NCBI GenBank assembly: GCA_016218925.1
Contig: JACRCR010000186.1
Span: forward strand, 1-53,420
Reading direction: 5' to 3'
Source: Deltaproteobacteria bacterium
Lineage (GTDB): Bacteria > Desulfobacterota > Binatia > UBA1149 > CAITLU01
DNA length: 53,420 nucleotides
How positions within the stretch are numbered: position 1 is the first letter of the stretch; every line of letters begins with the position of its first letter. The position numbers and the translations under genes were made by a program. The notes beneath the pieces are model-generated. The model saw only the letters and a list, made by a program, of their open reading frames with translations. It ran no database searches and was not told where the DNA came from. Positions 1 to 52,053 of this stretch are shown here, one piece after another.

Positions 1-885
1 AGCTTCGAGGTCGATCAGTAACACCACCAGATCCAGGCAGTCGCTGGTGCTGTCTTGTCCGTCCACGCTCAGCGTGTAGGTGCCGGGGGTGGTGAAGGCC
101 GCGCTGATATCGAAGTTGTGACGATCCCACAGCGAGCCATTGGGAGCGCGGCTGGTGCCGGCGTCCGGCACCGACTCGCCGTCCCACAGGCCGCCTGCGT
201 CGGGGACCGGCGCGCTTCCAGACGCCGACGAGAAGACCAGCGGGCCGTCATCGAACCCGCCTGCATCGAAGCGTTGGCCGTCGGCGCTGTGGGTCTGGGC
301 GTTCACCGCCCCACCCTGGAACTGGATGCCTCCCAGCGTCGAGTGCCAGCCGGCGTCCTCGCCGGGGAAGCCGTCGGGGATGTTCGAATCGTTGCCGTCA
401 AAGAACGCCAGATCGCGGTTGTTGGCCGGGTTGCCGTCGTCGAACAGCACGATCAGCGACGCGCCGTTGGCGCTGTGGCCGGTAAGAGCGCTCAGGCCCT
501 CGACCAGATATGGGCCGTCGCCCGTCACCAGAGCCGTCACGTCGGCAACGAAGGCTCGGCTGGAACCACTGCCCCAGCAGTTGGTGGTGGCGTCACCGAT
601 GGAGGTCCCCAGGACAGGGCTGCCGCCAAGCGTGATGTTCGCGTTGTCGTAGACCGCCCCGGTACCGGAATTGTTGATCCCATGCCAGTACAGGTACGCC
701 TTGGTGACGGTGCCGGTAACGCCGGCGAGCGTGATGGTTCCAGTGCCCCCGCCTACCCCGCCGACGGCGGCCGAAGTCCAGTCGGTATTCAGAGCCGCAT
801 GCTTGAAACTGACGGGTACCGCGTGGGCAACCGTCGCCGCAGCCAGCAGGCCTGCCGCAGCAAATAAAACGACGAAACGTCGCAT
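1..885 (-). CDS. Secreted protein of unknown function, C-terminus cut by the window edge
   Basis: The frame is open from an ATG at 885 to base 1 without a stop, giving 295 residues with the C-terminus missing. A GGGAGGG ribosome site lies just before the ATG. The first about 22 residues (MRRFVVLFAAAGLLAAATVAHA) form a clear Sec signal peptide. The mature part is rich in Gly, Asn, Asp and Thr. It has a beta-type pattern (KAYLYWHGINNSG, LIVLFDDGNP, LSVDGQDSTSD) that recalls secreted beta-sandwich proteins of the DUF3344 kind, but that match is from memory and tentative. The nearest co-directional gene is 253 bases upstream, so it probably has its own promoter. Function is unknown; export is well supported. 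Confidence 0.72.
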   Translation of the reverse strand, partial: MRRFVVLFAAAGLLAAATVAHAVPVSFKHAALNTDWTSAAVGGVGGGTGTITLAGVTGTVTKAYLYWHGINNSGTGAVYDNANITLGGSPVLGTSIGDATTNCWGSGSSRAFVADVTALVTGDGPYLVEGLSALTGHSANGASLIVLFDDGNPANNRDLAFFDGNDSNIPDGFPGEDAGWHSTLGGIQFQGGAVNAQTHSADGQRFDAGGFDDGPLVFSSASGSAPVPDAGGLWDGESVPDAGTSRAPNGSLWDRHNFDISAAFTTPGTYTLSVDGQDSTSDCLDLVVLLIDLEA

Positions 886-17233: not shown

Positions 17234-20200
17234 ATGCAACTATTTCCGCGCTTGATCGGCGCCAGCCTCGCCATGAGCGCGGTTCTGTGGGCTGCACCCG
17301 CGGCTGCACAGCCTATCCCGCAGGCGGTGATCAGCCCCGACCCGATGAGGCCTTTCATAGGCGAAAACTTCACATTCTCCGTCAACTTCGACAATACAGC
17401 ACCGACCGGATCCGTGCAGGTCGGCTACAACGCGCTGCTGGAACTGCTCGTGCCGCCGGCAGTGACGCTCAATCCCACGCTCTCCTCACCGGTGCTCGGC
17501 GACATCGCGCCGACCGTAGCGGTAGTCGTGCCGGTCAGCGGTGTCGTCACCAACACGATCACCGGCGAAACGCTTTCGGGTCTGACGCCGGGGGTGACCT
17601 ACTACCTCTATGAGTTGCCGCTGGGCAGCATGCCCCCCGAGCAGCCCTCGGTGGATCTCGGATTCACCGCCGCTGTGGCGGCGACCGAACCTCCCGGGAT
17701 CGCCGTCGTGCCCAGCATCATTGCCGCTGCGTCCTTCGGCCTCGGCGCCGACCCGTTGCTGAATCCGGCCACCGACCCGGTCGTGCGCAACGCGATTGCA
17801 GGCGTCGTCGTCACCCCGACGCCCAGCAGCCAGGGCACCGCCGATACGGCCGACGTGATTCCGGTCCTGTACATCCCGTACAAGACCTCCGCGGTGCTCG
17901 ACGGTAACGGCACCGCCACCGGCCCCAACTTCCCGATCGTCTACACGCTGTCGGCCGACATCGCCGACCCGGCCACGATCGACTCGTTCAGACTCTACGA
18001 CGTCATCCCAGATGCGCTGCGGTTTACCGGCATCACCGACATCCGGGCCAACGCCAGTTCCGGGGATCCCGACGTCACCGTCACCTTCCAGCGCTACGAC
18101 TGCGGCGGAGCGGAGCCGATCGTCACCCTCTTCGGACCGGCGCCGCTATCGACGATCGTGTACCCGCTCGTCCACCCCGATGGGACCGCCGAGCTGACTC
18201 AGCCGCCAAACGACGTGCCGGGCGGCTGCCTGAGCGTGACCTTCGCCGCCATCACCGGCGAAGTCGGCCCCGACGACGTCGCGATCACCTACGAATCCTA
18301 CGTCTCCGAGTTCGACGCCGCCGGCGCGCGCATCCTGCCTGAGACCACCGGCGGCGACTTTCCGGTTTCCAATGACGTCACGGGCTCCGGAACGACGGCG
18401 ACCGGCCTATTCGGGACCATCGATCTGACCGGTGGTGACCTGACCAGCGACCCCGACGTCGTCGTCGGCAAGAGCCTGGACACGCAAAAATCGGTCGTTC
18501 TGATCTCCGATCCCGGCGCAGACGGTCCCACTCCGCTCGACGTTGCACGGTTCACGATCAGCGGCCAGATCTCCGACTACTTCGGCCACGACCAACTGGC
18601 GCTGCACGACCTGCTCGGCGATGGACTCGACTTCGGGATCCTCAACCCGGGCAACGCCACACTGACGCTGTCGCGCGAAAACGGACAGACGCTGGGCGTT
18701 ACGCCGCTCTCTTTCACCGCGCTGGACGTCGATCCCGCGCCCGACCGCACGATCCCGGGCCAGGAATATCCGTTCCCGGTCGCCGGCGGCGAGACGCTGC
18801 TCGTGACCCAGAACGCGAGGCCGGGCGAGTTCTCCGGAAGCAGCCCCGGCTTCACCACGCTGGTCTTCGATCTGTCGCGTCTCGTCGGCAACAGATGCAG
18901 CATCACATCGATCCCGTGCGCCAGCGATACTGACTGCCCAGGAGTAGAGACCTGCGTGCTCGCCGGAGAGATGAACGGCGGCTTCGTCGACCTGGTCTCG
19001 TCGGCCACCGGGTTCGTCGTCGGCATCGACGACGATACCCGTTTCACGATCACGTTCGACGCCACCATCCAAGAGAACTACGAGAATCCGATCAGCTACA
19101 CCGAAGACGCGAGTATCGACTCGACCGACTCGGTCGAGAATCTGGAGTCTGTGGTCGGCCAGATCACCAGTGCGGTCGGCGGCCAGGTGGACGAGGATTC
19201 GGCAGGCGCCGGCCTGATTGTGTCGGGTCCCACGGTCGAGAAGTTCCTGGTCGCCGTCAACGGCGGCGACATCTTGCCGAGTCCGGTGCGCGTGCTGCCC
19301 GGCGACGACGTCACCTATCTGCTGCGCACCACGATCCCGGTAGGAGCTCTGGAGATCCTGATCCTCGACGACTTCTTGCCGATTCCGGTTTTCACTACCG
19401 GCGACCCCGACGCCGATGGCATCGCGAGCGCGTGGAGTTTCAACAACACGGTGCTGGCGCCGGGAAGCTACCCGGCCGCAGGCGTCGCCTCCTTCGGCCC
19501 GCTCACTACCGTCAATCCACCCGACTACGTTCCCACCGACAACCCCCCCGCGATCAGCGTCGATGTGCCGGGCAACAGCGTCGAGTTCCACTTCCCGGAC
19601 CAGGTAACCTTCCAGCCGCCCACCACGCAGGAGATCGTGGTCGAAGTACTGTTCACGATTCGCGTCACCACAGACCCGTTCGCGGACCAGCTTTTCCTGA
19701 CGAACTTCGCGCAGGCCACGTTCGGCAACTCGAACGCCCGCACCACCAACGCCGCGGTCGTTCGCTTCGTGCTGCGCGAACCGTATCTGCACATCACCAA
19801 GGGTGTGTCGGCCACCAGCGGGGCCGGTACGATATCTCCTTCGCCGGCGATCCTTCCGGTCGACGGCGATCTGACCGGCGCCGATGCCGGCGACGTCGTA
19901 ACCTACGTCCTCACCGTCGAGAACCAGGGCGGAGCTCCCGCCTACGATGTCACCATCACCGACCCCGAAGTTACCGGCCACGCGCTTGGGTCTTGTACGC
20001 TCGTCTCGGTCACCTCCGGCGACGGGGTCACGCCGCTGACCTACACCGGCGACATCACCGCCGGCGTGCACCTCGACAACCCTCTGGACGGAAACGACGG
20101 CACCGACGGCGCCCCCTACTCCACCGACACCGCGCTGCTGACCGTGCAGTGCACACTGGCGGACGACGTGCAGCCGAGTTCGTCGGTCGTCAATCTCGCA

Positions 20201-23200
20201 AGCGTCACGCGTTTCAACAACGACGGCGGCTCCAATTTCGTCGATCCGAGCGACCCGACGCCCTACCAGGACGACGCCACTGTCACGATGGCTCCGCCGG
20301 CGCTGGTCAAGACCATCGCGTCGGTGTCACCGCAGGCCGCCGGCGCGGGCAGCGTCGCTGCCGGCGACGTCGTCACCTACGCGCTTACCGTCACGCTGCC
20401 CGAGGGCCTCACCAATGCGCTGGTGCTGACCGACTCGCTGCCGGCCGGTTTCGAGTTTCTCGCTCCGGTCGCCGTCGATACGACGGGCTTTGCCGGAACC
20501 GTGACCGCCGCTCCGACCACCACCGTCACTGGAACACCGGCCGCCGGCCAGGTCGTCACGCTGGACTTCGGCGCGGTTACCGTGACCGCCGACAACAACG
20601 CCGCCACCAACGACTTCCTCGTAACGCTGCAGGCCCGCGTGCGCGGCGACCTCGCGCAGAACAGCGCGCCGGCTGCACCGCAGACCAAGACCAACAACTC
20701 GACCCTGAACTATTCGGGCAACCCGGCCGGCGCGCTCACCTCGAGCGCGACGACATCGTTCCGCGAGGCGGTGCTGACGATCACCAAGTCGATGGCACCC
20801 CCCGGCGCCGACGCCGGCGACACCATCACCTTCACCCTGACGGTCAGCAACACCGGCACCGCACCGGCCTACGACGTAGTGGTCAGCGATCCGCTCGACC
20901 TCAGCGTCTTCGACGGCACCGCGATCGTGTCGGTCAACGAGGGCACCACCCCGGCCGATTTCACCTACGCCTACGACGGCGCCGGCAACGTCAGCTACAC
21001 GCTCGGCGGCGGGCTGTCGATTCCGGCCGGCGGCTCGCGTGTGTTCACGTTCACCGCGCTGCTGCGTGCCGACGTCGTCACCAGTTCGACCTACTCGAAC
21101 ACCGCCGCTGTGACCGGCGACAGTCAGGACGACGTCGTCACCTCCGAGCGCGCCGCCACCGACGACGACACCGCCACCCTGGCGCTATCCAACTCGTTGG
21201 TATCGAAGGCGCTGACGCTGACGTCCGAACCGACCAGCGACCCCGGCGACGGCAATTTGGCCGCGAACCCGCCGGTGCTCATCGGCGAAGTCGTCGACTA
21301 CCGCGTCACGTTCACGATCCGCGAAGGGGTGACGCGCGCGGTGCGGCTGGCCGACGTGCTGCCCACCGGCATCTCGCACATCGCCACGTCCGCGACGCTC
21401 GCCCGCAGCAGCGCGGCACTGACTGCCGCCACCAACGTCGGCACCGGGCTCGGCATCAACGGCGAGGCACCCGGCACGCTGGTACCGATCACACTGTCGG
21501 GCGTCACCGGCGAGATCCTGATCGACCTCGGCAACGTCACCAACTCCGACACCGTCAACGCCACCACCGAAACCTACACGCTGCGACTGAAGGCGATCAT
21601 CCGCAACACCGCGGCCAACCAGGCCGGGACCCTGCTGCCCAACCGCGGGCGCATCCGTTACCAGACCTTCACCGGCACCGAGATGCAGGTGAACTCGTCG
21701 TTCGTCGACGTGCACGTGGCGGAGTCGACCCCGAGCGTGAACAAGACCGCGCTGCCGGTCACCGGCAACGCCGGCGACCTCATCACGTTCCAGGCCGTCA
21801 TCTCCAACACGGCCAGCGGCGCCAACGCCGCCAGCGGCTTCGACTGGACCTTCACCGACACGCTGCCGGCCGAGTACATCAACGCGGTCATCGTCAGCGT
21901 CAACACCGCCGCCGCACCCGGCGCGGTGGCCGCAGCTTCGTTCGGGGTTTTCCCCTTCCAGAACGTGTTGTCTGGCACCGTCGACCAGCTCGACGCCGGC
22001 GAGTCGATCACGGTCACCTACCAGGCCGAGATCGACGTCACCGCTCAGTTCGGCCAGACCCTGGTCAACACCATGGCGACGCAGGAGACGAGCCTTCCAG
22101 GGAGCAACGGCACCGGCGCCGCCAACCCCAATGCCACCGGAAGCACCGACGGCGAGCGCACCGGCAGCGGCGGTGTCAACGATCTGTTCACCAGCGGCAA
22201 CGCGCCGGTGGCCATCGACAGACCGACGCTTTCGAAAACGCTGCTCGGCCCGCAGTCCTACTACGCGATCGGCGACCGTGCCACGTTCCAGATCAGCGTC
22301 GGCGTACCGGCCGGCACTTCGACGATCTTCACCGTACGCGACAACATGCCGGCCGATCTCGAACTGGTGCCGGGCACCATCGTGGTCGCGACCTTCCCCG
22401 GCTTCAGCGCCGCCAACGCACCGCTGACCGAGGCCAACAACCCGACGTTCTACAGCCGCACCGGCGACCAGCTCGCCTTCAGGTTCGGCTCCATCACCGC
22501 CACCGTGGCCGGAACGGTCACCATCACCTACGACGCGGTGGTCGAAAACGTGCTGGCCAACCAGGACGGGCGCCTGCTGCGCAACAACGTCACGCTCGAG
22601 TACACCGATCCGAGCGCACCGCCCGCGACCATCACGATCGGACCGGTCGACAACGACCGCGACGTACGCGTCGGCGAACCTGACCTCGCGATCACCAAGG
22701 CGATCACGTCAGGCGCGGTAGGCAGTGACGCCGCCGATACCATCGGCTGGCAGATCGCGATCCAGAACAGCGGTCACACCAGCGCCTACCGGATGGCGTG
22801 GAGTGACGTGTTGCCGGACGGCCCCGGAGCAGGCGACGGGATCGCACAGATCTCGGCCGTGAACGTGCTGGTCAGCGGCGGCAACGTCTACTTGAACGGC
22901 ACCACCACGACAGTGCAGACCAGCGACGCAGTGGTGTCCACCACCAACAACGCCGGCGACACGATTTCGCTGCCGTCGTTCCAGATCGAGCCTGGCGCGA
23001 CGATCACGATCTCGTTCGACTCGATCGTCGGGACCGGCGTCACGGTCGGTCAGGTCTTCAACAACGTCACCGCTGCCACCTACGACAGCCTGGTCGGCGG
23101 CGGAGGTCGTGACGCCACCGGCGGACCTGCGGTCGACGACGACAACGATGCCGACCTCGACAACTACAAGGAGTCGGCCAGCCAGAGCCTGACTCTCGAC

Positions 23201-26200
23201 TCACCCATCGCGATCGACAAGAGCGTGGCGCGTCCGACCTACACGATCGGCGAAGACGCGGTCTTCACGGTCCGGGTCGACCTCTTCGAAGGCGTGACCC
23301 AGTCGGTCCTCGTCACCGACGAACTGCCCCCGGGCCTGACCTACCGCAGTCATTCGATCGCCGCCGGCAACATGGGAATCACGTTCTCGAACCCCGGCTA
23401 CAATGTTCCGACCATCGGAGTCGGCGGCGGTGGCGGCCAGACACTCACGTTCGACTTCGGCGACGTCACCGACGCACCCGATCTGAGCGTGCTCGACGAC
23501 TTCGTAACCATCGAGGTCGTCGCGCGCGTCGACAACATCCTGGCCAATCAGGACGGTACGGATCTGGAGAACAACGCCTGGCTGGCGTACGGTCCCACGG
23601 CCACGCGCCTCGACTTCGACAGCGACGGCGGCACACCCGGCGTGCAGGGACTGAGCGTGACGGTGATCGAGCCCGACCTGACGATCACCAAGACCGTGGT
23701 GCCGTCGATGCAGTCGCTCGGCGACGTGGTGACGTTTACGGTAACCGTCGCCCACAGCGGCACCACCACCGCCGACGCCTACGACATGGTCGTCACCGAC
23801 ACGATCCCGGCCGGACTCACCTACGTGCCCGGGTCCGTCAATCCGCCGGCCGGCGCTTCGTTCGTCGATCCCGTCCTGACCGTCACTCACGCTTCACTGA
23901 CGCAAGTGGATGGCAGCTTCACCTTCACTTACGAGGCCAGCATCGACCCAGGCGCAGTGGTGGGCACACCGCTGTTCAACGACGCCGATCTGGTGTGGGC
24001 GGGCCTGCCCGGCGCGACCGGCGCCGCTGACAACGGGCGAACCGGAACCGGCGGGGTCAACGACTACAACGACACAGACAACCAGAGCGTCACTCCGACC
24101 ATCGCCGCGTACCTCGAAGCGGTCAAGACCGTCGCGCTGCTGATAGACGCCGACGCCAGCACCACGGTCACTCCGGGGGATACGCTGCGCTACGACATCA
24201 TCCTCAGGGGCGAGAGCGGCACCGCCAACAATATCGCGTTCACCGACACCGTCCCGGCCGACACGACCTACGTCGCGGCCAGCCTGACGACTGACGTCGG
24301 AATCGCCGACGACGGCGCGGCCCCCGACCTCATGGTGACGATCCCGTCTATGACGGTTGGCAACATCACCAACATCCGCTTCGACGTGACCGTGGATCCG
24401 GGCACCCCGGCCGGCACGATCTTGTCGAACCAGGGCGTGGTGGACTCCGACAACACCGTCCCCGAACCTAGCGACGAAGACGATACCGACGACAACGGCG
24501 ACCAGCCGACGACGATCCCGGTAGGCGGACCTTCGCCACCGGCTCAGCCTCTTCGGGCTGCGAAGGTCGTCGGCTTGTTGCTCGACGCCGACGCGAGCGG
24601 CAGCGTCACCGGCGGCGACACGCTTCGCTATACTGTCGTGCTGCGCAACCTCGGCGCATCGCCACTGAGCGGCGTCACGTTGAGCGACACCATACCGACC
24701 GGCCTGACGGGCGTTCTCGGTTCGGGCACGGTGACCGGAGCCGGCGCCGCCGTCGCCCTCACGACAACCACCGTGTCGATCACGATACCGGCGATCGCCG
24801 CAGGCGACTTCGAGGTGGCCAGGTTCGACGTCACGGTAGACGGTCCCCCACTGTACAACGGAAGCGGCGACGGCGATCCGCTGCGCGAGACCTTCGTCAA
24901 CCAGGGAACCGCGGACTCCAACGAGACCCCCCCGGTGCTCACCGACTCCGACGGCGACCCGACCGACGGCGAACAGCCCACCTCCATCGGTGCGGTCGAC
25001 GGCGTGTCCGGCTCGCCGGTCCTCGACGTCGAGAAGCGCGTCACCCTGGCGGTCGACAACGCCGGAGATGGCCTGGTCGATCCACTCGACGTGCTCGAGT
25101 ACACGATCACGCTGCGCAACACCGGTTCGGCTGCCGCCCTCAACACGGTGCTGACCGACCCGACGCCTAACGACACCACGATCGTGGTCGGCTCGGCGAC
25201 CTCGAGCCAGGGCATCGTCGTCGCCGAAGTTCCGCTGGTAGCAAATCTCGGTGACGTCGCGGCGGGAGGCTTCGTACTGATCCGTTTCCGCGTCACCGTC
25301 GACGCCGCAGCGCCGAGCGGGACCATCATCAACAACCAGGCCACCGCCAGCGGCGACAATTTCCCGCCCGAGCCCAGCGACGACAACGGCCAGGACGGCG
25401 ACGGCAAGAATCCCAACCGCACGCCGGTCGATAGCAACCCGCCCGGAGGCGGAGGACCGGGGCAGCCCTCCTTCGGCAAGTCGCTCACGGCCACCAGCGA
25501 AGCGCACACTGCGGGCGCGTCGATGGCCATCGGCGAACTGGCGACGTTCCAACTGGCGGCCGCTGTGCCACCAGGAACGACCCGTCAGGTGACGCTGTCG
25601 GACACGCTGCCTGCCGGGATGGCGTACATCGCCGGAAGCGCCCGGCTGCAGCGGATCTTCGACACCGGCCTGAGCAGTTCGACTGACCCCGGCAGCATCA
25701 ATTTTGCCGTTTCAGGAGCATTCGTGGCGCTGGCCGATGGCAGCGAGTTGACGGTTTCGGGACAAGACCTCAGCGTCTTCCTCGGCGACGTGATCAACTC
25801 TGATGCGACGCCGAACGACGAGCGCTACGTGCTCGAGTACCGCGTGCTGGTTCTCAACGACGTATCCAACCAGGACGGCACAACGCTCGACAACCTAGCC
25901 GCCCTGACCTACTGGGACGGACTGTCGCAGACGCAGACCCTGACCGATACCGAAACCCTCGACGTCGTCGAACCCGCGACGGCGATTACCAAGACGGGCG
26001 TTCCCACCACCGCTCCGGTGGGCGGCGGCACCATCTCGTTTACGATCAGCGTCACCAACCCGGCAGCCCCGTCGACTTCGACCGCCTTCGAGGTGAGCGT
26101 CAACGACACCGTGCCTGCGCAGTTCACCGGCGTCAGCGCGCTCAGTGTCGTCGCTGCCGGCGGGGTCTCCGGCGTTGTCGACTCGAGCGCCGGCAACGCG

Positions 26201-28282
26201 ATCAGCGTCTCCGCAGCGGTGTTCCCCGCAGGCGGCAGCTTGACGCTGAGTTTCACCGCCGACGTCTCCTCGCCGTTCCCGACACCGTCGCTCGACAACA
26301 CCGCGAACGTGACGTGGACCAGCCTGCCCGCAGGCAACGGCACCGGTGCAGTTACGCCCGGAGCCTCTGGCGCAGCCGACGGCGAGCGTAACGGCGACGG
26401 CGGCGTCAACGACTACGCGGTCAGTGACACCGAGACGATCGTCACTCCGGTGCTGTTCCTGGCCAAGAGCGACGATCCCGACTCGGTGACACCGGGCGGT
26501 TTGCTCACCTACGTGCTGCTGGTCACCAACACCTCGACAACCGCGCTGACTAACGTCGAGTTGGTCGAGGCATACGACCCGCGAACCAGCTTCGTGTCGG
26601 CCAGCCCGGCGCCCGACATCGGCGACAACCGCTGGGTTATCGGGACGCTGGCTGCGGGCGCGCAGACCAGCATCTCCGTTACGGTATCGGTCGATGCCGG
26701 AGTCGGTGAGGGCGACGTCCTGCTGAACTCGGCGACGGTCACCTCCGACGGCGGCGGCCTGGCTACCGAGGACGAAGAAACCACCGTCACGGTCCATGGG
26801 GCCGGCAATGCGCTGCTGGATCTGGACAAGTCCGTGTCACCCGCGCAGGTACCCTCGGGCGGAGTGCTGCACTACACGCTGGCGGTGAGCAACGCCGGTC
26901 CCGCAACTTCCTACGCGACCGCGATCGACGATGTGCTGCCGTCGGGTCTGACCTACATGAACGCTATTCCGGCGCCAGCGGCGGTACTCGGCAACCTGCT
27001 GTCGTGGGACGTCGGCGACCTGCCGGCAGGCGCCTCGACGACGATCGAAGTGTTTGCCGAAACCGACGCGACGCTGATCGCCGGCGCGCTGCTCGACAAC
27101 TGCGCGAACGCCGCGGGCAGCGACGGACCCGGAACCACCGCGAACGCGGGCCTGAATGCAGAAGGCTGCGCCGCCAGCACCACCTCGGGGCCCGGGACCG
27201 ACTGCACGCTAGTCATGAAGAAGCGCAGCATCGGTGTTCCGGTCGTGGGCGGAGAGATCGTCTACCATTGCTTGTGGTGCGACCCCTGCGTCGACGCGGT
27301 CGGCGTCAACATCCTCGACCTGCTGCCTCCGGAGGTCGAGTTCGTCTCGGTCAGCACGCGCGATGTCCCGTCGATCTCGAATCTGACCGACCCTGCACGC
27401 GTGATCTTCGACATCCCGATCCTGCCGGCCGGACGCGCGGGTCTGGCGCAAATCCGGGTTCGCATCAAGGACGACGTGCTCCCGGGCACGGTGCTCACCA
27501 ACGCGGTCACGCTGACGGACGCGGCGCTGCGCGTTCGCACCGACGATGACGTGGTGGTCGTGCTGTCACCCGGCACCGCGGCAGCCAAGTCGTCGCGCAG
27601 TGTCAAAGTCTCGGGGAACACGCGCGCACGGCCCGGCGCACTGGTGCGCTACTCGGCGCGCTACAGCGGCGTCGAGCAGGGCGCGTCGCTGACCATGTCG
27701 CTGTCGGATGGCCTCGAGCCGACCATGGCGATCCCGTCTCCCTCCTATCAGGACAGCGGAGTGCTGACCTGGAACGGCCTGCCGGCCAAGGGCAAAGTCG
27801 ATGTGCGCGCACGAGTGATGATATCGGACCCGCGCGTGCGCGGATCGGTGGTATCGGCCGAGGTCACCGTAAGTGATGCCGACGGCACGTTGCTACGCAA
27901 CGCCGCCGACACGATCGTGACCGCGACCCCGGGCGACCCGCCGGGTCCCGGCTCGTTCAGCAAGCTCGACCTCAAGGCACCGCGCTTCGTTCGTGCGGGG
28001 CTGATCACCTCGCTGACGCTGCGCTACACACGACTGAGCGGGAACGGCAGTGCGCTCGTCAACCTGCCCGAAGGCATGAGTTTCGATCAGGCCGTGCCCG
28101 CGCCCAGTTCCGTGCAGGGCAACGTGTTGCGATGGGACGCCCTGGCGGGAACCAGCGGATCCGTCAAAGTGCGGGCCGGCGTCGCGGCGGCGCTGGTACC
28201 GGGCCAACACGTCACCGTCGGTGCGAGCGTAACCGACGACGTCGGCACGGTTGCCCGGGAGACCGAATTGACACTGCGTTGA
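17234..28282 (+). CDS. Giant secreted multi-module DUF11/CnaA-like (isopeptide-type) surface or fibre protein
   Basis: This is a 3682-residue exported protein. ATG 17234 has a GGGGGAT site and gives a clean signal peptide (MQLFPRLIGASLAMSAVLWA, then APAAAQ). The rest is about 22 Ig-like beta modules starting near residues 214, 412, 668, 852, 1025, 1180, 1321, 1500, 1664, 1817, 1992, 2148, 2294, 2439, 2597, 2747, 2915, 3074, 3195, 3326, 3451 and 3575. One type is DUF11 (GDTITFTLTVSNTGTAPAYD). The other is fimbrial-D2/CnaA-like, with a Lys in strand one, D-x-LP in the middle and NN before the last strand. Three modules near 2294-2700 open with DxDxSxxVxxxD calcium loops. Cys residues occur in only a few places (e.g. 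YHCLWCDPC). No LPXTG, PEP-CTERM, T9SS or autotransporter domain is visible at the C-terminus. Adhesion or fibre formation is an inference. Confidence 0.88.
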   Translation: MQLFPRLIGASLAMSAVLWAAPAAAQPIPQAVISPDPMRPFIGENFTFSVNFDNTAPTGSVQVGYNALLELLVPPAVTLNPTLSSPVLGDIAPTVAVVVPVSGVVTNTITGETLSGLTPGVTYYLYELPLGSMPPEQPSVDLGFTAAVAATEPPGIAVVPSIIAAASFGLGADPLLNPATDPVVRNAIAGVVVTPTPSSQGTADTADVIPVLYIPYKTSAVLDGNGTATGPNFPIVYTLSADIADPATIDSFRLYDVIPDALRFTGITDIRANASSGDPDVTVTFQRYDCGGAEPIVTLFGPAPLSTIVYPLVHPDGTAELTQPPNDVPGGCLSVTFAAITGEVGPDDVAITYESYVSEFDAAGARILPETTGGDFPVSNDVTGSGTTATGLFGTIDLTGGDLTSDPDVVVGKSLDTQKSVVLISDPGADGPTPLDVARFTISGQISDYFGHDQLALHDLLGDGLDFGILNPGNATLTLSRENGQTLGVTPLSFTALDVDPAPDRTIPGQEYPFPVAGGETLLVTQNARPGEFSGSSPGFTTLVFDLSRLVGNRCSITSIPCASDTDCPGVETCVLAGEMNGGFVDLVSSATGFVVGIDDDTRFTITFDATIQENYENPISYTEDASIDSTDSVENLESVVGQITSAVGGQVDEDSAGAGLIVSGPTVEKFLVAVNGGDILPSPVRVLPGDDVTYLLRTTIPVGALEILILDDFLPIPVFTTGDPDADGIASAWSFNNTVLAPGSYPAAGVASFGPLTTVNPPDYVPTDNPPAISVDVPGNSVEFHFPDQVTFQPPTTQEIVVEVLFTIRVTTDPFADQLFLTNFAQATFGNSNARTTNAAVVRFVLREPYLHITKGVSATSGAGTISPSPAILPVDGDLTGADAGDVVTYVLTVENQGGAPAYDVTITDPEVTGHALGSCTLVSVTSGDGVTPLTYTGDITAGVHLDNPLDGNDGTDGAPYSTDTALLTVQCTLADDVQPSSSVVNLASVTRFNNDGGSNFVDPSDPTPYQDDATVTMAPPALVKTIASVSPQAAGAGSVAAGDVVTYALTVTLPEGLTNALVLTDSLPAGFEFLAPVAVDTTGFAGTVTAAPTTTVTGTPAAGQVVTLDFGAVTVTADNNAATNDFLVTLQARVRGDLAQNSAPAAPQTKTNNSTLNYSGNPAGALTSSATTSFREAVLTITKSMAPPGADAGDTITFTLTVSNTGTAPAYDVVVSDPLDLSVFDGTAIVSVNEGTTPADFTYAYDGAGNVSYTLGGGLSIPAGGSRVFTFTALLRADVVTSSTYSNTAAVTGDSQDDVVTSERAATDDDTATLALSNSLVSKALTLTSEPTSDPGDGNLAANPPVLIGEVVDYRVTFTIREGVTRAVRLADVLPTGISHIATSATLARSSAALTAATNVGTGLGINGEAPGTLVPITLSGVTGEILIDLGNVTNSDTVNATTETYTLRLKAIIRNTAANQAGTLLPNRGRIRYQTFTGTEMQVNSSFVDVHVAESTPSVNKTALPVTGNAGDLITFQAVISNTASGANAASGFDWTFTDTLPAEYINAVIVSVNTAAAPGAVAAASFGVFPFQNVLSGTVDQLDAGESITVTYQAEIDVTAQFGQTLVNTMATQETSLPGSNGTGAANPNATGSTDGERTGSGGVNDLFTSGNAPVAIDRPTLSKTLLGPQSYYAIGDRATFQISVGVPAGTSTIFTVRDNMPADLELVPGTIVVATFPGFSAANAPLTEANNPTFYSRTGDQLAFRFGSITATVAGTVTITYDAVVENVLANQDGRLLRNNVTLEYTDPSAPPATITIGPVDNDRDVRVGEPDLAITKAITSGAVGSDAADTIGWQIAIQNSGHTSAYRMAWSDVLPDGPGAGDGIAQISAVNVLVSGGNVYLNGTTTTVQTSDAVVSTTNNAGDTISLPSFQIEPGATITISFDSIVGTGVTVGQVFNNVTAATYDSLVGGGGRDATGGPAVDDDNDADLDNYKESASQSLTLDSPIAIDKSVARPTYTIGEDAVFTVRVDLFEGVTQSVLVTDELPPGLTYRSHSIAAGNMGITFSNPGYNVPTIGVGGGGGQTLTFDFGDVTDAPDLSVLDDFVTIEVVARVDNILANQDGTDLENNAWLAYGPTATRLDFDSDGGTPGVQGLSVTVIEPDLTITKTVVPSMQSLGDVVTFTVTVAHSGTTTADAYDMVVTDTIPAGLTYVPGSVNPPAGASFVDPVLTVTHASLTQVDGSFTFTYEASIDPGAVVGTPLFNDADLVWAGLPGATGAADNGRTGTGGVNDYNDTDNQSVTPTIAAYLEAVKTVALLIDADASTTVTPGDTLRYDIILRGESGTANNIAFTDTVPADTTYVAASLTTDVGIADDGAAPDLMVTIPSMTVGNITNIRFDVTVDPGTPAGTILSNQGVVDSDNTVPEPSDEDDTDDNGDQPTTIPVGGPSPPAQPLRAAKVVGLLLDADASGSVTGGDTLRYTVVLRNLGASPLSGVTLSDTIPTGLTGVLGSGTVTGAGAAVALTTTTVSITIPAIAAGDFEVARFDVTVDGPPLYNGSGDGDPLRETFVNQGTADSNETPPVLTDSDGDPTDGEQPTSIGAVDGVSGSPVLDVEKRVTLAVDNAGDGLVDPLDVLEYTITLRNTGSAAALNTVLTDPTPNDTTIVVGSATSSQGIVVAEVPLVANLGDVAAGGFVLIRFRVTVDAAAPSGTIINNQATASGDNFPPEPSDDNGQDGDGKNPNRTPVDSNPPGGGGPGQPSFGKSLTATSEAHTAGASMAIGELATFQLAAAVPPGTTRQVTLSDTLPAGMAYIAGSARLQRIFDTGLSSSTDPGSINFAVSGAFVALADGSELTVSGQDLSVFLGDVINSDATPNDERYVLEYRVLVLNDVSNQDGTTLDNLAALTYWDGLSQTQTLTDTETLDVVEPATAITKTGVPTTAPVGGGTISFTISVTNPAAPSTSTAFEVSVNDTVPAQFTGVSALSVVAAGGVSGVVDSSAGNAISVSAAVFPAGGSLTLSFTADVSSPFPTPSLDNTANVTWTSLPAGNGTGAVTPGASGAADGERNGDGGVNDYAVSDTETIVTPVLFLAKSDDPDSVTPGGLLTYVLLVTNTSTTALTNVELVEAYDPRTSFVSASPAPDIGDNRWVIGTLAAGAQTSISVTVSVDAGVGEGDVLLNSATVTSDGGGLATEDEETTVTVHGAGNALLDLDKSVSPAQVPSGGVLHYTLAVSNAGPATSYATAIDDVLPSGLTYMNAIPAPAAVLGNLLSWDVGDLPAGASTTIEVFAETDATLIAGALLDNCANAAGSDGPGTTANAGLNAEGCAASTTSGPGTDCTLVMKKRSIGVPVVGGEIVYHCLWCDPCVDAVGVNILDLLPPEVEFVSVSTRDVPSISNLTDPARVIFDIPILPAGRAGLAQIRVRIKDDVLPGTVLTNAVTLTDAALRVRTDDDVVVVLSPGTAAAKSSRSVKVSGNTRARPGALVRYSARYSGVEQGASLTMSLSDGLEPTMAIPSPSYQDSGVLTWNGLPAKGKVDVRARVMISDPRVRGSVVSAEVTVSDADGTLLRNAADTIVTATPGDPPGPGSFSKLDLKAPRFVRAGLITSLTLRYTRLSGNGSALVNLPEGMSFDQAVPAPSSVQGNVLRWDALAGTSGSVKVRAGVAAALVPGQHVTVGASVTDDVGTVARETELTLR

Positions 28283-30163: not shown

Positions 30164-31026
30164 GATCGTTCGACCACCACGGACCCGTCGCCTCCGTCCT
30201 CGTCCTCACCGTCGGCGACATCGCGCCGGCCGGCATCTTCCTCGCCCAAGCCGCCGGCGCTGGCCGGGCCGTACATCTCGGTGAGGTCGGCAATGGTGTC
30301 GTCTATGTCCTGGCTGAGCAAGCGAAGGTGGATCGGGCCGCAGCGTCCCTCCTGCTCGGCGGCGATGACGCCGAGCTTGATCATCTCGAGCAGGCCCAGG
30401 AAGGTCGATATGATCAACCCGCGCGGGACGTCGTCGCCGAACAGTTCGGTGAACTCGAGGGACCCCGATGTCCGCAGACGCTGCACCATCGAGCGCACGG
30501 CGTCGGCGACGCTGTACTCTTCGCCCTCCACGACGTGAGGCCGGCGGGCAGCCGCACGTACCAGCACTCGTCGCAAGGCTTCGAACAGATCCGCGAGTTC
30601 GAGGCGGCGAAGCGCCGCCGGCTCGTCCGCAGGTCCCTCGGAAACGGCCGGCTGGCGGCGAAATACGTCTCGGTCGAGCAGAACCCGATCGCGCAGTTCC
30701 TCGGCGGCCTCGCGGTAGCGCTGGTACTCGGCGAGTTGCCTCACCAGATCGGCGACCGCCTCGTCCTCCTCTTCGTCCTCTTCGTCGTCGCGCGGTAGCA
30801 GCAGCCGCGACTTCATGTACATCAGCGACGCGGCCATCACGAGGTATTCGCCGGCGACGTCGAGACTGAGCTCCTCGAACATGCCGATATAGGCCAGATA
30901 CTGATCGGTGATCTCGGCGATCGGAAGGTTGTAGATATCCAGTTCGTTGGTACGAACCAGGTGCAGCAGCAGGTCCAGGGGACCTTCGAAAGCGCCGAGC
31001 CGCACCGTATAGGCGGGAGTGCTCAC
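30160..31026 (-). CDS. scpA: Segregation and condensation protein A (kleisin)
   Basis: This 288-residue kleisin bridges the SMC heads. The N-terminal signature FEGPLDLLLHLVRTNELDIYNLPIAEITDQYL is clear, followed by EYLVMAASLMYMKSRLLLPR. An acidic linker (DEEDEEEDE) follows, and a C-terminal winged helix (FTELFGDDVPRGLIISTFLGLLEMIKLG) ends before an Asp/Gly-rich tail. The GTG start overlaps the trpS stop by 4 bases, so it is coupled to the upstream gene. Confidence 0.95.
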   Translation of the reverse strand: MSTPAYTVRLGAFEGPLDLLLHLVRTNELDIYNLPIAEITDQYLAYIGMFEELSLDVAGEYLVMAASLMYMKSRLLLPRDDEEDEEEDEAVADLVRQLAEYQRYREAAEELRDRVLLDRDVFRRQPAVSEGPADEPAALRRLELADLFEALRRVLVRAAARRPHVVEGEEYSVADAVRSMVQRLRTSGSLEFTELFGDDVPRGLIISTFLGLLEMIKLGVIAAEQEGRCGPIHLRLLSQDIDDTIADLTEMYGPASAGGLGEEDAGRRDVADGEDEDGGDGSVVVERS

Positions 31027-32042
31027 AGCAAACCCATCGCCCGGCGCACCTCTCCCATGGTCTCTTCGGCAACGGCGGCTGCTTTTCTGCGACCTTCGGC
31101 CAGTACCTCGCCTACCACGCCAGGCCGCAGCTCGAGCGCGCGGCGCCGCTCCTGGATCGGTCCCAGCTCATCCTGCACGCGGCGGATCATCACCTTCTTG
31201 CAGTCCACGCAGCCGATCGAAGCGCTTCGGCAGCCCTGTGTCACCTCCGCCCGCTCCTGCTCGGTGCAGTAGATCTCATGGAACTGGAACGCCGGGCAGT
31301 CCTTGGGATCGCCCGGATCGGTGCGGCGCTGGCGCCGCGGATCCGTCACCATGCGCACCAGCTTTGAGTAGACCGTGTCGGAGTCGTCGCTCAGCGCCAC
31401 GGCGTTGCCGTAGCTCTTGCTCATCTTGCGCCCATCGGTGCCCGGCACCCGAGCGGCCTGGACCACCAGACCGGCAGGCTCGGGAAAGATCGGGCCGTAA
31501 AAACGGTTGAAGCGCCGTGCGACCTCGCGCGTGAGTTCGACGTGCGGAAGCTGATCCTCGCCCACCGGGACGTGAGCGGCCTTGTAGAGCAGGATGTCGG
31601 CCGACTGCAGCAGCGGATAACCCAGAAACCCGTACGTCGACAGGTCGCGGCCTTCGAGCTGCTCCTGCTGTTCCTTGTAGCTCGGTACCCGTTCGAGCCA
31701 CGGTACCGGAATGATCATCGAGAACAGCAGATGGAGTTCGGCGTGCTCGGGCACCTGCGACTGGCGAAACAACACCGAGACCTCGGGATCCAGACCCACC
31801 GCGAGCCAATCCAGAATCATCGCGGTGGTACTGTCGGCAATGCCGCTCGGCTCCGCGTAGTCGGTGGTGAGCGCGTGCCAGTCGGCGACGAAGAAGAAGC
31901 ACCGCGCCGACTTCTGCAGTTCGACCCAGTTCTTCAAGGCGCCGTTGAGATGGCCGAGGTGCAGCGCACCTGTCGGACGCGTTCCCGAAACCACTACGCC
32001 CGCCGTTCGAGTCACGGCACCCTCCTGTTGGTTATTCGCCAT
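31023..32042 (-). CDS. trpS: Tryptophanyl-tRNA synthetase
   Basis: This 339-residue class I synthetase charges tRNA-Trp. The HIGH-type motif is SGTRPTGALHLGHLNG, and the KMSKS loop is DGRKMSKSYGN. MIIPVPWLERVPSYKEQ and GYPLLQSADILLYKA are in the usual order. The frame runs upstream through other genes, so the start was placed at ATG 32042 (ANNQQEGAVTRTAGVVVSG), about 20 residues before conserved sequence and 5 bases after the protease stop. The ribosome site is weak, consistent with reading through from the upstream gene. Confidence 0.96.
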   Translation of the reverse strand: MANNQQEGAVTRTAGVVVSGTRPTGALHLGHLNGALKNWVELQKSARCFFFVADWHALTTDYAEPSGIADSTTAMILDWLAVGLDPEVSVLFRQSQVPEHAELHLLFSMIIPVPWLERVPSYKEQQEQLEGRDLSTYGFLGYPLLQSADILLYKAAHVPVGEDQLPHVELTREVARRFNRFYGPIFPEPAGLVVQAARVPGTDGRKMSKSYGNAVALSDDSDTVYSKLVRMVTDPRRQRRTDPGDPKDCPAFQFHEIYCTEQERAEVTQGCRSASIGCVDCKKVMIRRVQDELGPIQERRRALELRPGVVGEVLAEGRRKAAAVAEETMGEVRRAMGLL

Positions 32043-32047
32043 CGTGA

Positions 32048-32719
32048 TCAGAATACCGGAACCACGGCGCCGATCAGACGCAGCAGCAAGTGAATCACCG
32101 GGCCCAGTACCACGCCGAGCACGTTGGTCCACAGCAGTGCGACGACTATGAAGAAACCGTAGGGCTCGATCTGAGCCAGCGCCGCGCCTAGGCGACGCGG
32201 CAGCAGTCCCACCGCCACGCGTCCGCCATCCAGCGGCGGTATCGGCAGCATGTTGAAGACGGCGAGCACGAGGTTGAGCCGAAGGCTGAGCTGGCACATC
32301 AGCGCCAGCGGTTCGGCCACCAGGAAGCCACCTGCCGCGCCTTCGGGAGCCGCGTCCTGAAGCTGCAGGATCAGCGCTCTCAGCAGCGCGCTGGCCACCG
32401 CCACCGCAAGGTTCATCAGCGGCCCCGCCGCCGCCACCCACACCATGTCTCGCAACGGATTGCGCAGGCGATGAAAGGCCACCGGCACCGGCTTGGCCCA
32501 GCCGAACATCGGCGCTCCGCTCCACAGCAGCATCAGCGGCAAAACGATGGTGCCGATCGGATCGATGTGCGCCAGCGGGTTGAGCGTCAGGCGCCCGGCA
32601 CGCTCGGCGGTGTCGTCGCCGAGGCGGCTGGCCACATAGCCGTGAGCCCACTCGTGAAAAACCACGGCGATCAGAAACGGCAGCACCCAAAGGGCGGCCA
32701 AAGTAGGGTCGAAGTTCAT
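32048..32719 (-). CDS. Site-2 protease family (M50) membrane metalloprotease
   Basis: This is a 223-residue integral membrane protease with about 5-6 hydrophobic segments. The zinc motif HEWAH is in the first (AVVFHEWAHGYVASRLG), and the third ligand region is FNMLPIPPLDGGRV. It lacks the PDZ domains of RseP and matches the short Rip/FtsH-regulated-type S2P group often found beside trpS-scpAB. Substrates are unknown. ATG 32719 was chosen over an upstream TTG; neither has a good ribosome site. It lies between xerD (75 bases upstream) and trpS (5 bases downstream). Confidence 0.92.
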   Translation of the reverse strand: MNFDPTLAALWVLPFLIAVVFHEWAHGYVASRLGDDTAERAGRLTLNPLAHIDPIGTIVLPLMLLWSGAPMFGWAKPVPVAFHRLRNPLRDMVWVAAAGPLMNLAVAVASALLRALILQLQDAAPEGAAGGFLVAEPLALMCQLSLRLNLVLAVFNMLPIPPLDGGRVAVGLLPRRLGAALAQIEPYGFFIVVALLWTNVLGVVLGPVIHLLLRLIGAVVPVF

Positions 32720-32794
32720 GAAAACGCGGCGCGCCGGGGCTCGCGCCAGCAATACCAGCGCCTCCGGCGGTGGGCAACCGGCCCGGTCTGCACA

Positions 32795-33781
32795 TCAACG
32801 CGAGGGTTCTCTGGTTACTCGCATCTGCGCGCGCGGATGGTGGCGGCGGTGTACCTCGCTCAGACGTCCTGTGGCGACGTGGGTGTAGATCTGCGTCGTC
32901 GTTATATCGGCGTGTCCGAGCAGTAGCTGGACCGAGCGCAGATCGGCTCCGCCTTCGAGAAGATGGGTCGCGAACGAGTGACGCAGCACGTGCGGCGAGA
33001 CTCGCTCGAGACCGGCCGCATCGGCGAGTCCGCGCAGTCGCTTCCAGAACCCCTGGCGGCTCAGCCGCTTGCCGGCCTGGCTCAGGAACAGCGCTCTTGC
33101 GCGCCCGAGCGGATCCAGAGCCGGACGGCCGCGTTCGAGGTACTCGCGCAGCGCTTCCTGAGCCGCGCGTCCAACCGGCACCGCCCGCTCCTTGGAGCCC
33201 TTCCCGACCACCGCCAGATAGCCCTGTTCCAGGTGCAACTCGGCAGCCGTCAGGCCCACCAGTTCCGAGACCCTCAGGCCGCAGCCATAGAGCAGTTCGA
33301 GCATCGCGCGGTCGCGCAGCAGCAACGGCGCGTCGCCCGCCGAGACCGCGAGCAGGCTCTCGATCTCGGTCGTGGCCAGTTGCTTGGGAATCGGCCGGCG
33401 GCGCCGGCCGGCGCGCAGATCGCGCACCGGACTCGACTCGAGCCGACCCTCGCGGACCAGAAACCTGAACAGACCACGAACCGCCGACAAGATCCTCGCG
33501 CGCGAGGACGGAGCCATGCCGCGCCGCTCGAGAGACTCGAGGAACGCGATCAGGTCGCCGCGATCGACCTGCGAAGGCTCGCTGCGCCCCCGCCCGCGCA
33601 TCACTTCGAGCAGCAGCCGCAGATCGTGGCCGTAGGCCTCGAGCGAGTTGCGCGCCAGGCCCTTCTCGGCAGCAAGATGATCGAGATACCCGTCTACGGC
33701 AGCCGCCAGTGGCAGTTCCCGCGAGCGCGCAGCGCCCGACCGGGCCCGTATCGTGTCCGACTTGCCGCGCGGCCGTTTCAA
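32795..33781 (-). CDS. xerD: Site-specific tyrosine recombinase XerD
   Basis: This 328-residue enzyme resolves chromosome dimers at dif, probably with a XerC partner elsewhere. The N-terminal SAM-like DNA-binding domain covers about 22-115. The catalytic residues are all present: Arg170 (GCGLRVSELVGL), Lys194 (VVGKGSKERAVPVG), His264/Arg267 (SPHVLRHSFATHLLEGGAD), His290 and Tyr299 (LLGHADITTTQIYTH). A 20-residue basic N-terminal extension precedes the domain. The start is TTG 33781, overlapping the glnD stop (TTGA). Location among housekeeping genes argues against an integron or phage integrase; XerC is the alternative name. Confidence 0.92.
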   Translation of the reverse strand: MKRPRGKSDTIRARSGAARSRELPLAAAVDGYLDHLAAEKGLARNSLEAYGHDLRLLLEVMRGRGRSEPSQVDRGDLIAFLESLERRGMAPSSRARILSAVRGLFRFLVREGRLESSPVRDLRAGRRRRPIPKQLATTEIESLLAVSAGDAPLLLRDRAMLELLYGCGLRVSELVGLTAAELHLEQGYLAVVGKGSKERAVPVGRAAQEALREYLERGRPALDPLGRARALFLSQAGKRLSRQGFWKRLRGLADAAGLERVSPHVLRHSFATHLLEGGADLRSVQLLLGHADITTTQIYTHVATGRLSEVHRRHHPRAQMRVTREPSR

Positions 33782-36519
33782 AACACCAACTCGGCCGGGG
33801 CCGGCGCCGCACGGCCCGCCGCCTCGTCGATCGTGATCGCGCGAACTATCGACGCACTGACCTGCTCGAGCGCGGCGGCATCCTCCACTTTGCGACGCTG
33901 GGAATCGGTGACGTAGAAGACGTCGAGCACTTCGTTGAGGTGGGTCGAGATCTTGGCCATGTGGATATCGAGCCCCAGCTTGACCATCTCGTTGACGATC
34001 AGGAAGAGCAGCGCCGGGCGGTCGGCGGCGTAGACGTCGACCACGGTGAATTCGCGCGACAGCGCGTTGTCGACCTCGACGCGGGCGTAGCCGCGCCGCG
34101 CGGTCTTGTCGCCGATGCGGCGCGTACGCCGGGTCAGCACCGACCGCACCAGTTCTTCGACATCGACGCTACCCGCGAAGACCTGCTCGAGCGTCGCTGC
34201 GACCTCTTCCCACAACCGCGCCAGTGCGCCCTCGACCTCGCCGGCAACGTATTCGATGCGGAAGACGTCGATCGCCCAGCCGCTCGAGGACGTGACCAGC
34301 CGCGCGCTCAGGATATTGAGGCCGTGGGCCGAAAGCGCGCCGACCATGTCACGGAACAGCCCGATCCGATCGTGCGCGCAGATCGTGAACTCGGTGAAGC
34401 CGCGCTCGGGAAAATGCTCGACACCGTGGCGGAACATCGCCGAGCCGACCGACTCGAACAGACGCCAGTGGTCGATGATCTTCTCGTCGGGGTTGCCCAG
34501 AAAGTACGAAGTCGGGAGCGTGTCGAGGAACAGTTCGAGTCTGCTGCGTTCGGCCTCACCGGCGGCCCGATCCAGGAGGCGCCGACGGGTGCGCTCCGCT
34601 CGGCTCTGCATGTCGGCCTGCGCGACCAGACCTTTGTCGAACACTTCGACGGCGCTGCGATAGAACTCGGCCAGAAGATGGTCCTTCCAACTGTTCCATA
34701 TCTGAGGTCCGACCGCTCGCATGTCCGCGAACGTCAGTAGGTACAGCAGCGTCAGGTGCTCGGCGGTGCCGACCTGACCGACGAAGTCCAGTACCAGGTC
34801 GGGGTCCTCGATGTCGCGCGTCTGGGCCAGCATCGACATGACGAGGTGGTTGCGAACCAGGAACTCGAGCGTGGCGCGGTCGTCCTCGTGCATCTGCAGG
34901 CGTTCGGCGATGTCGCGCACGATCACCGCACCGCGCTCGTCGTGATCGCCGCCGCCGTAGCCCTTGCCCAGGTCGTGAAACAGCATGGCCAGGAACAGCA
35001 GTTCCGGACGGTCGCAGTCGCGCATCGTCTGGGTCAGGAACGGGCTCTTCTCCTGATGCTCGCCGTCGCGCAGACCTTCGAGTTCGCGGATCCCGACCAG
35101 CGAGTGCTCGTCGACCGTGTAGACGTGGTAGTAGTCGTGCTGAACCATGCAGAACAGACGCCCGAACTCGGGGATCAGCCGCCCGAGCACACCGAGGCGG
35201 TTCATCTGCGCGAGGGCTTCGTAGACTCCCTCCTTTGCGCGCAGTATTTCGAACAGCGTCTGCACCGCAGGCCGCGACTGCGCCAACTCGGGGGTGAGCA
35301 GTTCGGCTTTCTGTCGCACCAGCTCGCGGGCCCGCGCCGAAAGCCGCACGTCGTGACGCTGGCAGTCGCGGAACACCGCGATCAGATTGACCGGGTCGGC
35401 GTCGATCGCCCGCTCCTCGACCACCAGCCGGTCGGCCACTACGGCGACGCCGCTGCGCAGCGTACGCTGTTTGACCAGACGCTCGAGCAGACCGGTGCGC
35501 TCGGGCGGAGCCAGCAAACGATCGACGATATCGTCGGTCGTGCGCGCCATCACCGCCGCGTGCTGGTAGTAGGCCCGAATGAACATGTCACCGGCGGTGT
35601 TGTTGCCCTCCGGCTGGTAACCGAAGCGCTCGCCGATGGCCTGCTGGCGCTCGAACGTCAGTTGTTCGGCCTTGCCCTGACTCAGAAAATGCAGCGCGCT
35701 GCGCGTGCGGAACAGGAACTCGCGCGCCGCGGCCAGTTCTTCGTACTCGCGGAGCGTAACGATGCCCTGCTCGCGCAGGCCCTCCAGATCGGCGACATCG
35801 CGCTTTACGCGGGCTATCCACAGCGCGGTATTGAAATCCCGCAGGCCACCCTGCCCTTCCTTGACGTTGGGCTCCAGGATGAATACCGAGCCACCGTTCT
35901 TCTCGATCCGCGTCCTGCTCTCCGCGAGCTTGGCGACGGTGAACGCCTCGACTTCGATCTCGCGCAATTTGCGTCGCACCGCGGTCTCGAATTCGCCGGC
36001 CAGTTCGGGGCTGCCGCACAGGTAGCGACCGTCGAGCAGCGCGGTCTTGATCGTCAGATCGCCCGAAGCGAGCGTCACGCATTCGGCCGCGCTGCGCACC
36101 GCGTGTCCGACCTGAAGGCGCGCGTCCCACAAGGTATAGAGCAACGATTCGGTGATCGTCTCGACGAACGGGGTGACGCCGCCCGAGTGCAGAACCAGAA
36201 GGTCGACGTCGGAGTGCGGGCACTGCTCGCGACGCCCGTAGCCGCCGAGCGCGAAAACCGCGCAATGCTGGCGCGTGCGGGCGTAACGCCTCGCGTAGCG
36301 CTCGATCGACGCGTCGAACAGGAAGCGGATCAGATGATCGAGACTCGCCGCCAGCCGCGTCACTGTGTCGATGCCGCTGGCGCCGGCCCAGTGCGCGGCT
36401 TCGAGTTCCTCGCGGACCGCAGTGACGTATTCGAGCGCGACGTTGGAGAGACGACCCCCCACACTGCCGGGGGCCGGCAGCAGCATCGCGGCTGAGGTTC
36501 CCGACTCGGGTGCCGCCAC
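33778..36519 (-). CDS. glnD: Bifunctional uridylyltransferase/uridylyl-removing enzyme GlnD
   Basis: This 913-residue nitrogen sensor adds UMP to and removes it from PII proteins in response to glutamine. In order it has a nucleotidyltransferase domain (LGGYGRREQCPHSDVDLLVL, about residues 88-110), the GlnE/GlnD linker (VKEGQGGLRDFNTALW), an HD domain for deuridylylation (LFHDLGKGYGGGDH, about 515) and two C-terminal ACT domains that sense glutamine (DRIGLFRDMVGAL and DRPALLFLIVNEM). All parts look intact. The start is GTG 36519 with GAGG close upstream. It is coupled to xerD by a TTGA overlap. No glnB or glnA is in the window. Confidence 0.96.
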   Translation of the reverse strand: MAAPESGTSAAMLLPAPGSVGGRLSNVALEYVTAVREELEAAHWAGASGIDTVTRLAASLDHLIRFLFDASIERYARRYARTRQHCAVFALGGYGRREQCPHSDVDLLVLHSGGVTPFVETITESLLYTLWDARLQVGHAVRSAAECVTLASGDLTIKTALLDGRYLCGSPELAGEFETAVRRKLREIEVEAFTVAKLAESRTRIEKNGGSVFILEPNVKEGQGGLRDFNTALWIARVKRDVADLEGLREQGIVTLREYEELAAAREFLFRTRSALHFLSQGKAEQLTFERQQAIGERFGYQPEGNNTAGDMFIRAYYQHAAVMARTTDDIVDRLLAPPERTGLLERLVKQRTLRSGVAVVADRLVVEERAIDADPVNLIAVFRDCQRHDVRLSARARELVRQKAELLTPELAQSRPAVQTLFEILRAKEGVYEALAQMNRLGVLGRLIPEFGRLFCMVQHDYYHVYTVDEHSLVGIRELEGLRDGEHQEKSPFLTQTMRDCDRPELLFLAMLFHDLGKGYGGGDHDERGAVIVRDIAERLQMHEDDRATLEFLVRNHLVMSMLAQTRDIEDPDLVLDFVGQVGTAEHLTLLYLLTFADMRAVGPQIWNSWKDHLLAEFYRSAVEVFDKGLVAQADMQSRAERTRRRLLDRAAGEAERSRLELFLDTLPTSYFLGNPDEKIIDHWRLFESVGSAMFRHGVEHFPERGFTEFTICAHDRIGLFRDMVGALSAHGLNILSARLVTSSSGWAIDVFRIEYVAGEVEGALARLWEEVAATLEQVFAGSVDVEELVRSVLTRRTRRIGDKTARRGYARVEVDNALSREFTVVDVYAADRPALLFLIVNEMVKLGLDIHMAKISTHLNEVLDVFYVTDSQRRKVEDAAALEQVSASIVRAITIDEAAGRAAPAPAELVF

Positions 36520-50868: not shown

Positions 50869-50916
50869 CGTCGCGGCTAGTTATCCGGAACTCTCCGGAA
50901 TCTCCACGGCCGACGG

Positions 50917-51999: not shown

Positions 52000-52053
52000 G
52001 TCGTGATCCTCTGCCGTCGCTATCTTCGCGGCTGCCCGGGCACGGTGAAATTC

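Follow-up and report, generated by a model that had tools for sequence, protein, structure and literature searches.

A giant exported Binatia protein with alternating D2-like and DUF11 modules, probably the stalk of a fibrillar surface protein

Known pilins measure about 4–5 nm per domain, and the C-terminal domains of the AgI/II proteins (BspA, SpaP, SspB) are tandem isopeptide Ig modules. The DUF11 family (PF01345) was renamed CLIPPER in 2025; its isopeptide bond joins Lys-715 to Asn-806, with Asp-748 as the presumed catalyst, and its alternation with DUF7507 has already been published (PMC12617251). Because DUF11 is CLIPPER and this alternation has been described, the kind of stalk reported here is already known; as far as our tools show, the strict D2/DUF11 alternation and its order, fixed over deep divergence, are new, as are the signature at the junction and the C-terminal tail.

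The stretch of DNA analysed (the window, 53,420 nucleotides) forms a single contig in a 4.66-Mb draft genome of the class Binatia. Its forward strand carries an ORF at 17234–28282 encoding an exported protein of 3682 residues plus stop, with an ATG start, a G-rich stretch upstream (by eye) and a signal peptide at 17234–17308 (MQLFPRLIGASLAMSAVLWAAPAAAQ followed by P, by eye). The coordinates, length and signal peptide reported in a first-pass annotation were correct on re-reading the ORF; its estimate of about 22 Ig-like modules held as to their kind, and by our count, with modules cut at the Lys motif of each, they number 23 (Na, Nb and m0 to m20). Na (17309–17863), a conserved domain with a beta-rich AF2 model, is the candidate distal tip, and Nb (17864–18460) is weakly D2/DUF11-like (hhalign 66–70%). 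The AF2 model of Na and Nb together reached a pLDDT of 84; neither had a Pfam or NCBIfam match, and no known adhesive domain was recognised in them. The next module, m0 (18461–19231), is Ig-like with a Cys-containing insert and resembles the third module class described below (hhalign 92%).

The gene stands among ordinary neighbours, with DnaJ, dihydroxy-acid dehydratase and DUF1329 upstream and a pseudouridine synthase, ScpA, a TrpRS/TyrRS-family synthetase, a GlnD-like protein, an amidase and MutS downstream, and comparison of the orthologous loci revealed no common flanking partner gene beyond close relatives. The GC content of the gene matches the surroundings and therefore gives no support for horizontal acquisition. 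Two further ORFs, at 31023–33812 (N-terminal part) and 49727–52738, look like wrong-frame artefacts. Also in the window, at 7863–10448 on the reverse strand, lies a gene for an exported-looking protein of 861 residues that combines DUF4215 and Cys-rich repeats with a TTTTTTLP linker and, at the C-terminus, a dockerin type I domain.

Between residues 667 and 2293, SpaA-M/"D2"-like and DUF11 modules alternate five times, forming the pairs m1-m2 (19232–20299), m3-m4 (20300–21193), m5-m6 (21194–22222), m7-m8 (22223–23206) and m9-m10 (23207–24112). Next come three modules of a third DUF11 subtype (m11 to m13, 24113–25465; assigned by HMMs and conservation), then one further D2-DUF11 pair (m14-m15, 25466–26452), two DUF11 modules (m16-m17, 26453–27208; HMMs and Pfam DUF11) and a C-terminal tail (m18 to m20, 27209–28279). 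We scored each module with profiles built from the other modules of the protein, itself excluded. These leave-one-out HMMs returned D2, D11, D2, D11 and so on from m1 to m10 with no exception, m1 being weak at 14.7 bits, placed m11 to m13 in the third class at 76–98 bits, and called m14 a D2 and m15 a D11; the other modules were DUF11-like or scored too weakly for a class. The self-built profiles thus bear out the one-to-one alternation over about residues 668–2290 that had been proposed, as well as the interruption by three modules and the single resumption; the pair lengths of 298–356 residues agree with the proposed unit of about 320. A self dot plot of residues 668–2290 had windows above threshold at offsets of 290–370 and 610–670, that is, diagonals at two-module spacing, and was nearly empty at one-module spacing (4 windows near 150 and 2 near 470; shuffled sequences gave a mean of 0.0008 windows per offset).

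With public libraries the alternation is only partly visible, because the TIGR04226 (RrgB_K2N_iso_D2) and DUF11 models cross-match. Against a 30-bit score, TIGR04226 gave 45.9 for m3, 37.5 for m7, 29.2 for m9, 15.9 for m5 and no match for m1, and its cut-off was also passed by the even modules m4 (30.9) and m10 (37.6); the PF01345 cut-off was exceeded by m4, m10, m15, m16 and the odd module m9, with m2, m6 and m8 below it, and that of TIGR01451 by m2. Assignment of the pairs draws on the self-built HMMs for m1-m2, on these and the library models for m3-m4, and on HMMs and trees for m5-m6, m7-m8 and m14-m15. Such cross-matching, and hhalign probabilities of 97–99% between the three classes, would be expected if there were a single DUF11 family and the choice of models had produced the apparent alternation. 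We consider this highly improbable, since the leave-one-out profiles separate the core modules and the dot plot is nearly empty at one-module offset, and these two tests refute it. The hhalign comparisons show the three classes to be distant relatives within one superfamily.

The Lys-Asp/Glu-Asn triad of isopeptide domains is present in every one of the 17 modules from m1 to m17, with Lys near the module start, Asp or Glu in the middle (Glu in m16) and Asn near the end, as in K1996-D2029-N2113 of m9 and K2153-D2189-N2249 of m10. The Asn of m3 (N1154 by our reading) was misaligned in the position listing and was recovered in the pair alignment. Triad residues are among the most conserved in all three classes: in D2 and third-type modules K and D/E never vary, DUF11 modules have K in 93%, D/E in 100% and N in 100%, and N is at 100% in the third type and invariant in both halves of the alignment of the protein's own pairs. 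The pair profile matched 9IFR, the crystal structure of an isopeptide-bonded DUF11/CLIPPER domain (E=2.8e-7), with the bond Lys and Asn aligned; the Asp column of the DUF11 modules is, by our count, one residue off the published Asp-748. The D2 half matched Corynebacterium diphtheriae SpaA (3HR6, E=3.6e-4), and a full-length phmmer search of the PDB found no match. AF2 confidently predicted m9-m10 as two sandwiches (pLDDT 85.8, pTM 0.74). In Foldseek the top matches of this model were integrin legs at a low TM of 0.35–0.4, i.e., generic Ig tandems, and its bacterial matches, BspA-C, SpaP-C, SspB-C, CNA and GBS80, are isopeptide-type surface proteins. Together, these results suggest that isopeptide bonds could form in m1 to m17.

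The D2-to-DUF11 junction has its own signature, with Glu at 33 of 34 and Pro at 31 of 34 junctions, respectively 7 and 6 residues before the DUF11 Lys; none of the ten residues preceding D2 modules is comparably fixed. In three relatives unused in its discovery, EP was present at 12 of 13 D2-to-DUF11 junctions compared to 1 of 11 DUF11-to-D2 junctions, and in a DUF11-only array of the same genome it occurred at none. The AF2 pair model shows the EP link as about three residues between strands. These data support two kinds of joint between modules, so that the two kinds of interface claimed in the first-pass annotation hold at the sequence level only, with Glu-Pro before DUF11 and not before D2. 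EP could be part of the last strand of the D2 fold and not an interface. This would suit a different account, in which the alternation is mechanically meaningless: an ancestral two-module gene was pair-duplicated a few times and then froze, EP being a mark of the D2 end.

Among 148 Binatia genomes, a search with the N-terminal region found orthologues in 5 besides that of the window (G003, G104, G043, G105 and G106), with two copies in G104, giving six homologous Binatia proteins altogether; a weak match in G007 was a different protein and was discarded. All six share the D2/DUF11 order and the three-module block, whose middle member is weak in G104, and their modules 3–11 are 39–68% identical to those of the window protein. 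Outside this set, and with organism names as in the database records, the series Na-Nb-0-1..13 is complete in a 'Deltaproteobacteria' MAG (L075), positions 4–13 are embedded in a longer protein in a 'Desulfobacterales' MAG (L071), and a 'Chloroflexi' MAG (L076) shares the N-terminus but differs in the number of its D2-DUF11 pairs, which are whole. The L071 frame exceeds 6000 residues and, by eye, runs on into an SdrD_B-like stretch.

In trees of 37 D2 and 37 DUF11 modules from seven orthologous proteins, every position formed its own clade; the array was therefore complete before these lineages split, with no later reshuffling. Module m14 joined m5 (95/95) and m15 joined m6 (93/88), which supports the duplication of m5-m6/m14-m15 as a pair in one event; the pair m14-m15 is present only here and in the G003 orthologue. 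Between-position distances were congruent in the D2-then-DUF11 register (r=0.72, permutation P=0.014), and this significance was lost when pair 14-15 was left out (P=0.14). No module-length tandem DNA repeat was found in the giant gene. A 3331-residue paralogue (L018:3831-13823, G000 contig C76) contains, at the DNA level, a 357-bp DUF11 unit in 16 tandem copies; it shares its C-terminal tail with the window protein. By these sequence comparisons the window array appears old and static and the paralogue a growing homorepeat. Pair-wise duplication, proposed earlier as the growth mechanism, thus probably accounts for some of the past growth, as indicated by the m14-m15 event, the distance congruence and the pair number in L076; as an ongoing process it conflicts with the old clades and the missing DNA repeat. 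A frozen, mechanically meaningless array remains a tentative though serious alternative: pair duplication was seen once, and a static order fits simple inheritance. Against it, strict alternation and triads were kept through deep divergence, and the relative with a different pair number still has whole pairs. The array may be a designed fibre, as the first-pass annotation suggested.

The last 240 residues lack the triad and match a domain doublet with which many Binatia proteins end. This Ig-like doublet (m19-m20, 27557–28279; relatives L034, L044, L050 and L077-L106) has no Pfam family of its own. Of 34 frames tested, in which some genes are counted at two loci and 12 sequences trained the model, 30 had it at the extreme C-terminus, 13 residues or fewer from the stop; these come from 22 of 145 Binatia genomes. 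Proteins with the doublet often end in Val/Leu/Ile-Arg. In its place, the L075 orthologue ends in IPTL-CTERM (25.2 bits against a cut-off of 20.5), the two G104 orthologues in a hydrophobic segment plus Arg, and the G003 orthologue in another domain. No known surface anchor was recognised in the window protein, and a direct reading of its C-terminus did not show the combination of LPXTG, TM segment and basic tail of sortase-assembled pilins. The tail may serve in sorting or anchoring.

We propose, with a probability of about 0.6, that the giant protein forms the crosslinked stalk of a fibrillar surface protein, most likely an adhesin. The signal peptide and long tandem stalk are features of fibrillar adhesins; we do not file the protein as a member, because no adhesive domain was recognised in Na/Nb. 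Most likely it works like a fibrillar adhesin stalk of isopeptide-locked modules. After Sec export the N-terminal domain would face outward, and at least 17 CnaA-like beta-sandwich modules would self-lock by a Lys-Asn isopeptide bond with help from a buried Asp (in m16, Glu) and so make the fibre stiff and resistant to proteases. Its building unit would be the D2-DUF11 pair with a short Glu-Pro link inside and a second, different junction between successive pairs, and its C-terminal end would attach it to the cell in a lineage-specific way, through the Ig-like tail here and IPTL-CTERM or a hydrophobic segment plus Arg in relatives. At the spacing of known pilins the fibre would be near 100 nm long. 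The protein might instead belong to a sheath, S-layer-like coat or matrix, a structural role with no ligand binding; the want of a recognised adhesive domain and the presence of several more DUF11 giants in this genome would fit this, yet Na is a conserved domain, distinct from those of the stalk, and the orthologues have a terminal-anchor architecture, so we regard it as unlikely. Similarly speculative is a broader view, in which such giant fibres form a widespread and previously undescribed class and their two isopeptide types alternate because function requires it. A rigid Glu-Pro pair would then be combined with a softer joint, and a new tail domain would sort giants to the Binatia surface.

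If the proposed stalk is real, a mixed domain order, and not a homorepeat, can stay fixed through deep divergence; the D2-DUF11 pair would be a ready two-domain unit for asking whether unlike isopeptide domains stiffen or toughen a fibre, and the tail could give an uncultured Gram-negative group a new route for anchoring its giant proteins. Compared to the CLIPPER stalks (Acinetobacter silvestris B9T28_05395 / PDB 9IFR, PMC12617251), the window protein shares the CnaA-like fold, as predicted, the Lys-Asp-Asn residues and the tandem stalk of a giant exported Gram-negative protein. It differs in that neither a CshA-type tip nor an OmpA anchor was found in it, and in that the partner of DUF11 is D2/SpaA-M-like, strictly 1:1 and fixed in order position by position in orthologues. 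Its D2-type module matches both the sortase pilin SpaA of C. diphtheriae (3HR6) and the RrgB D2 model TIGR04226, although those pilins are sortase-polymerised subunits and this is a single giant chain with no LPXTG. The AgI/II C-terminal domains (BspA, SpaP, SspB) rank with the best bacterial matches to the fold of the pair; theirs, however, are few copies near the cell wall anchor, whereas here the modules form a long alternating stalk.
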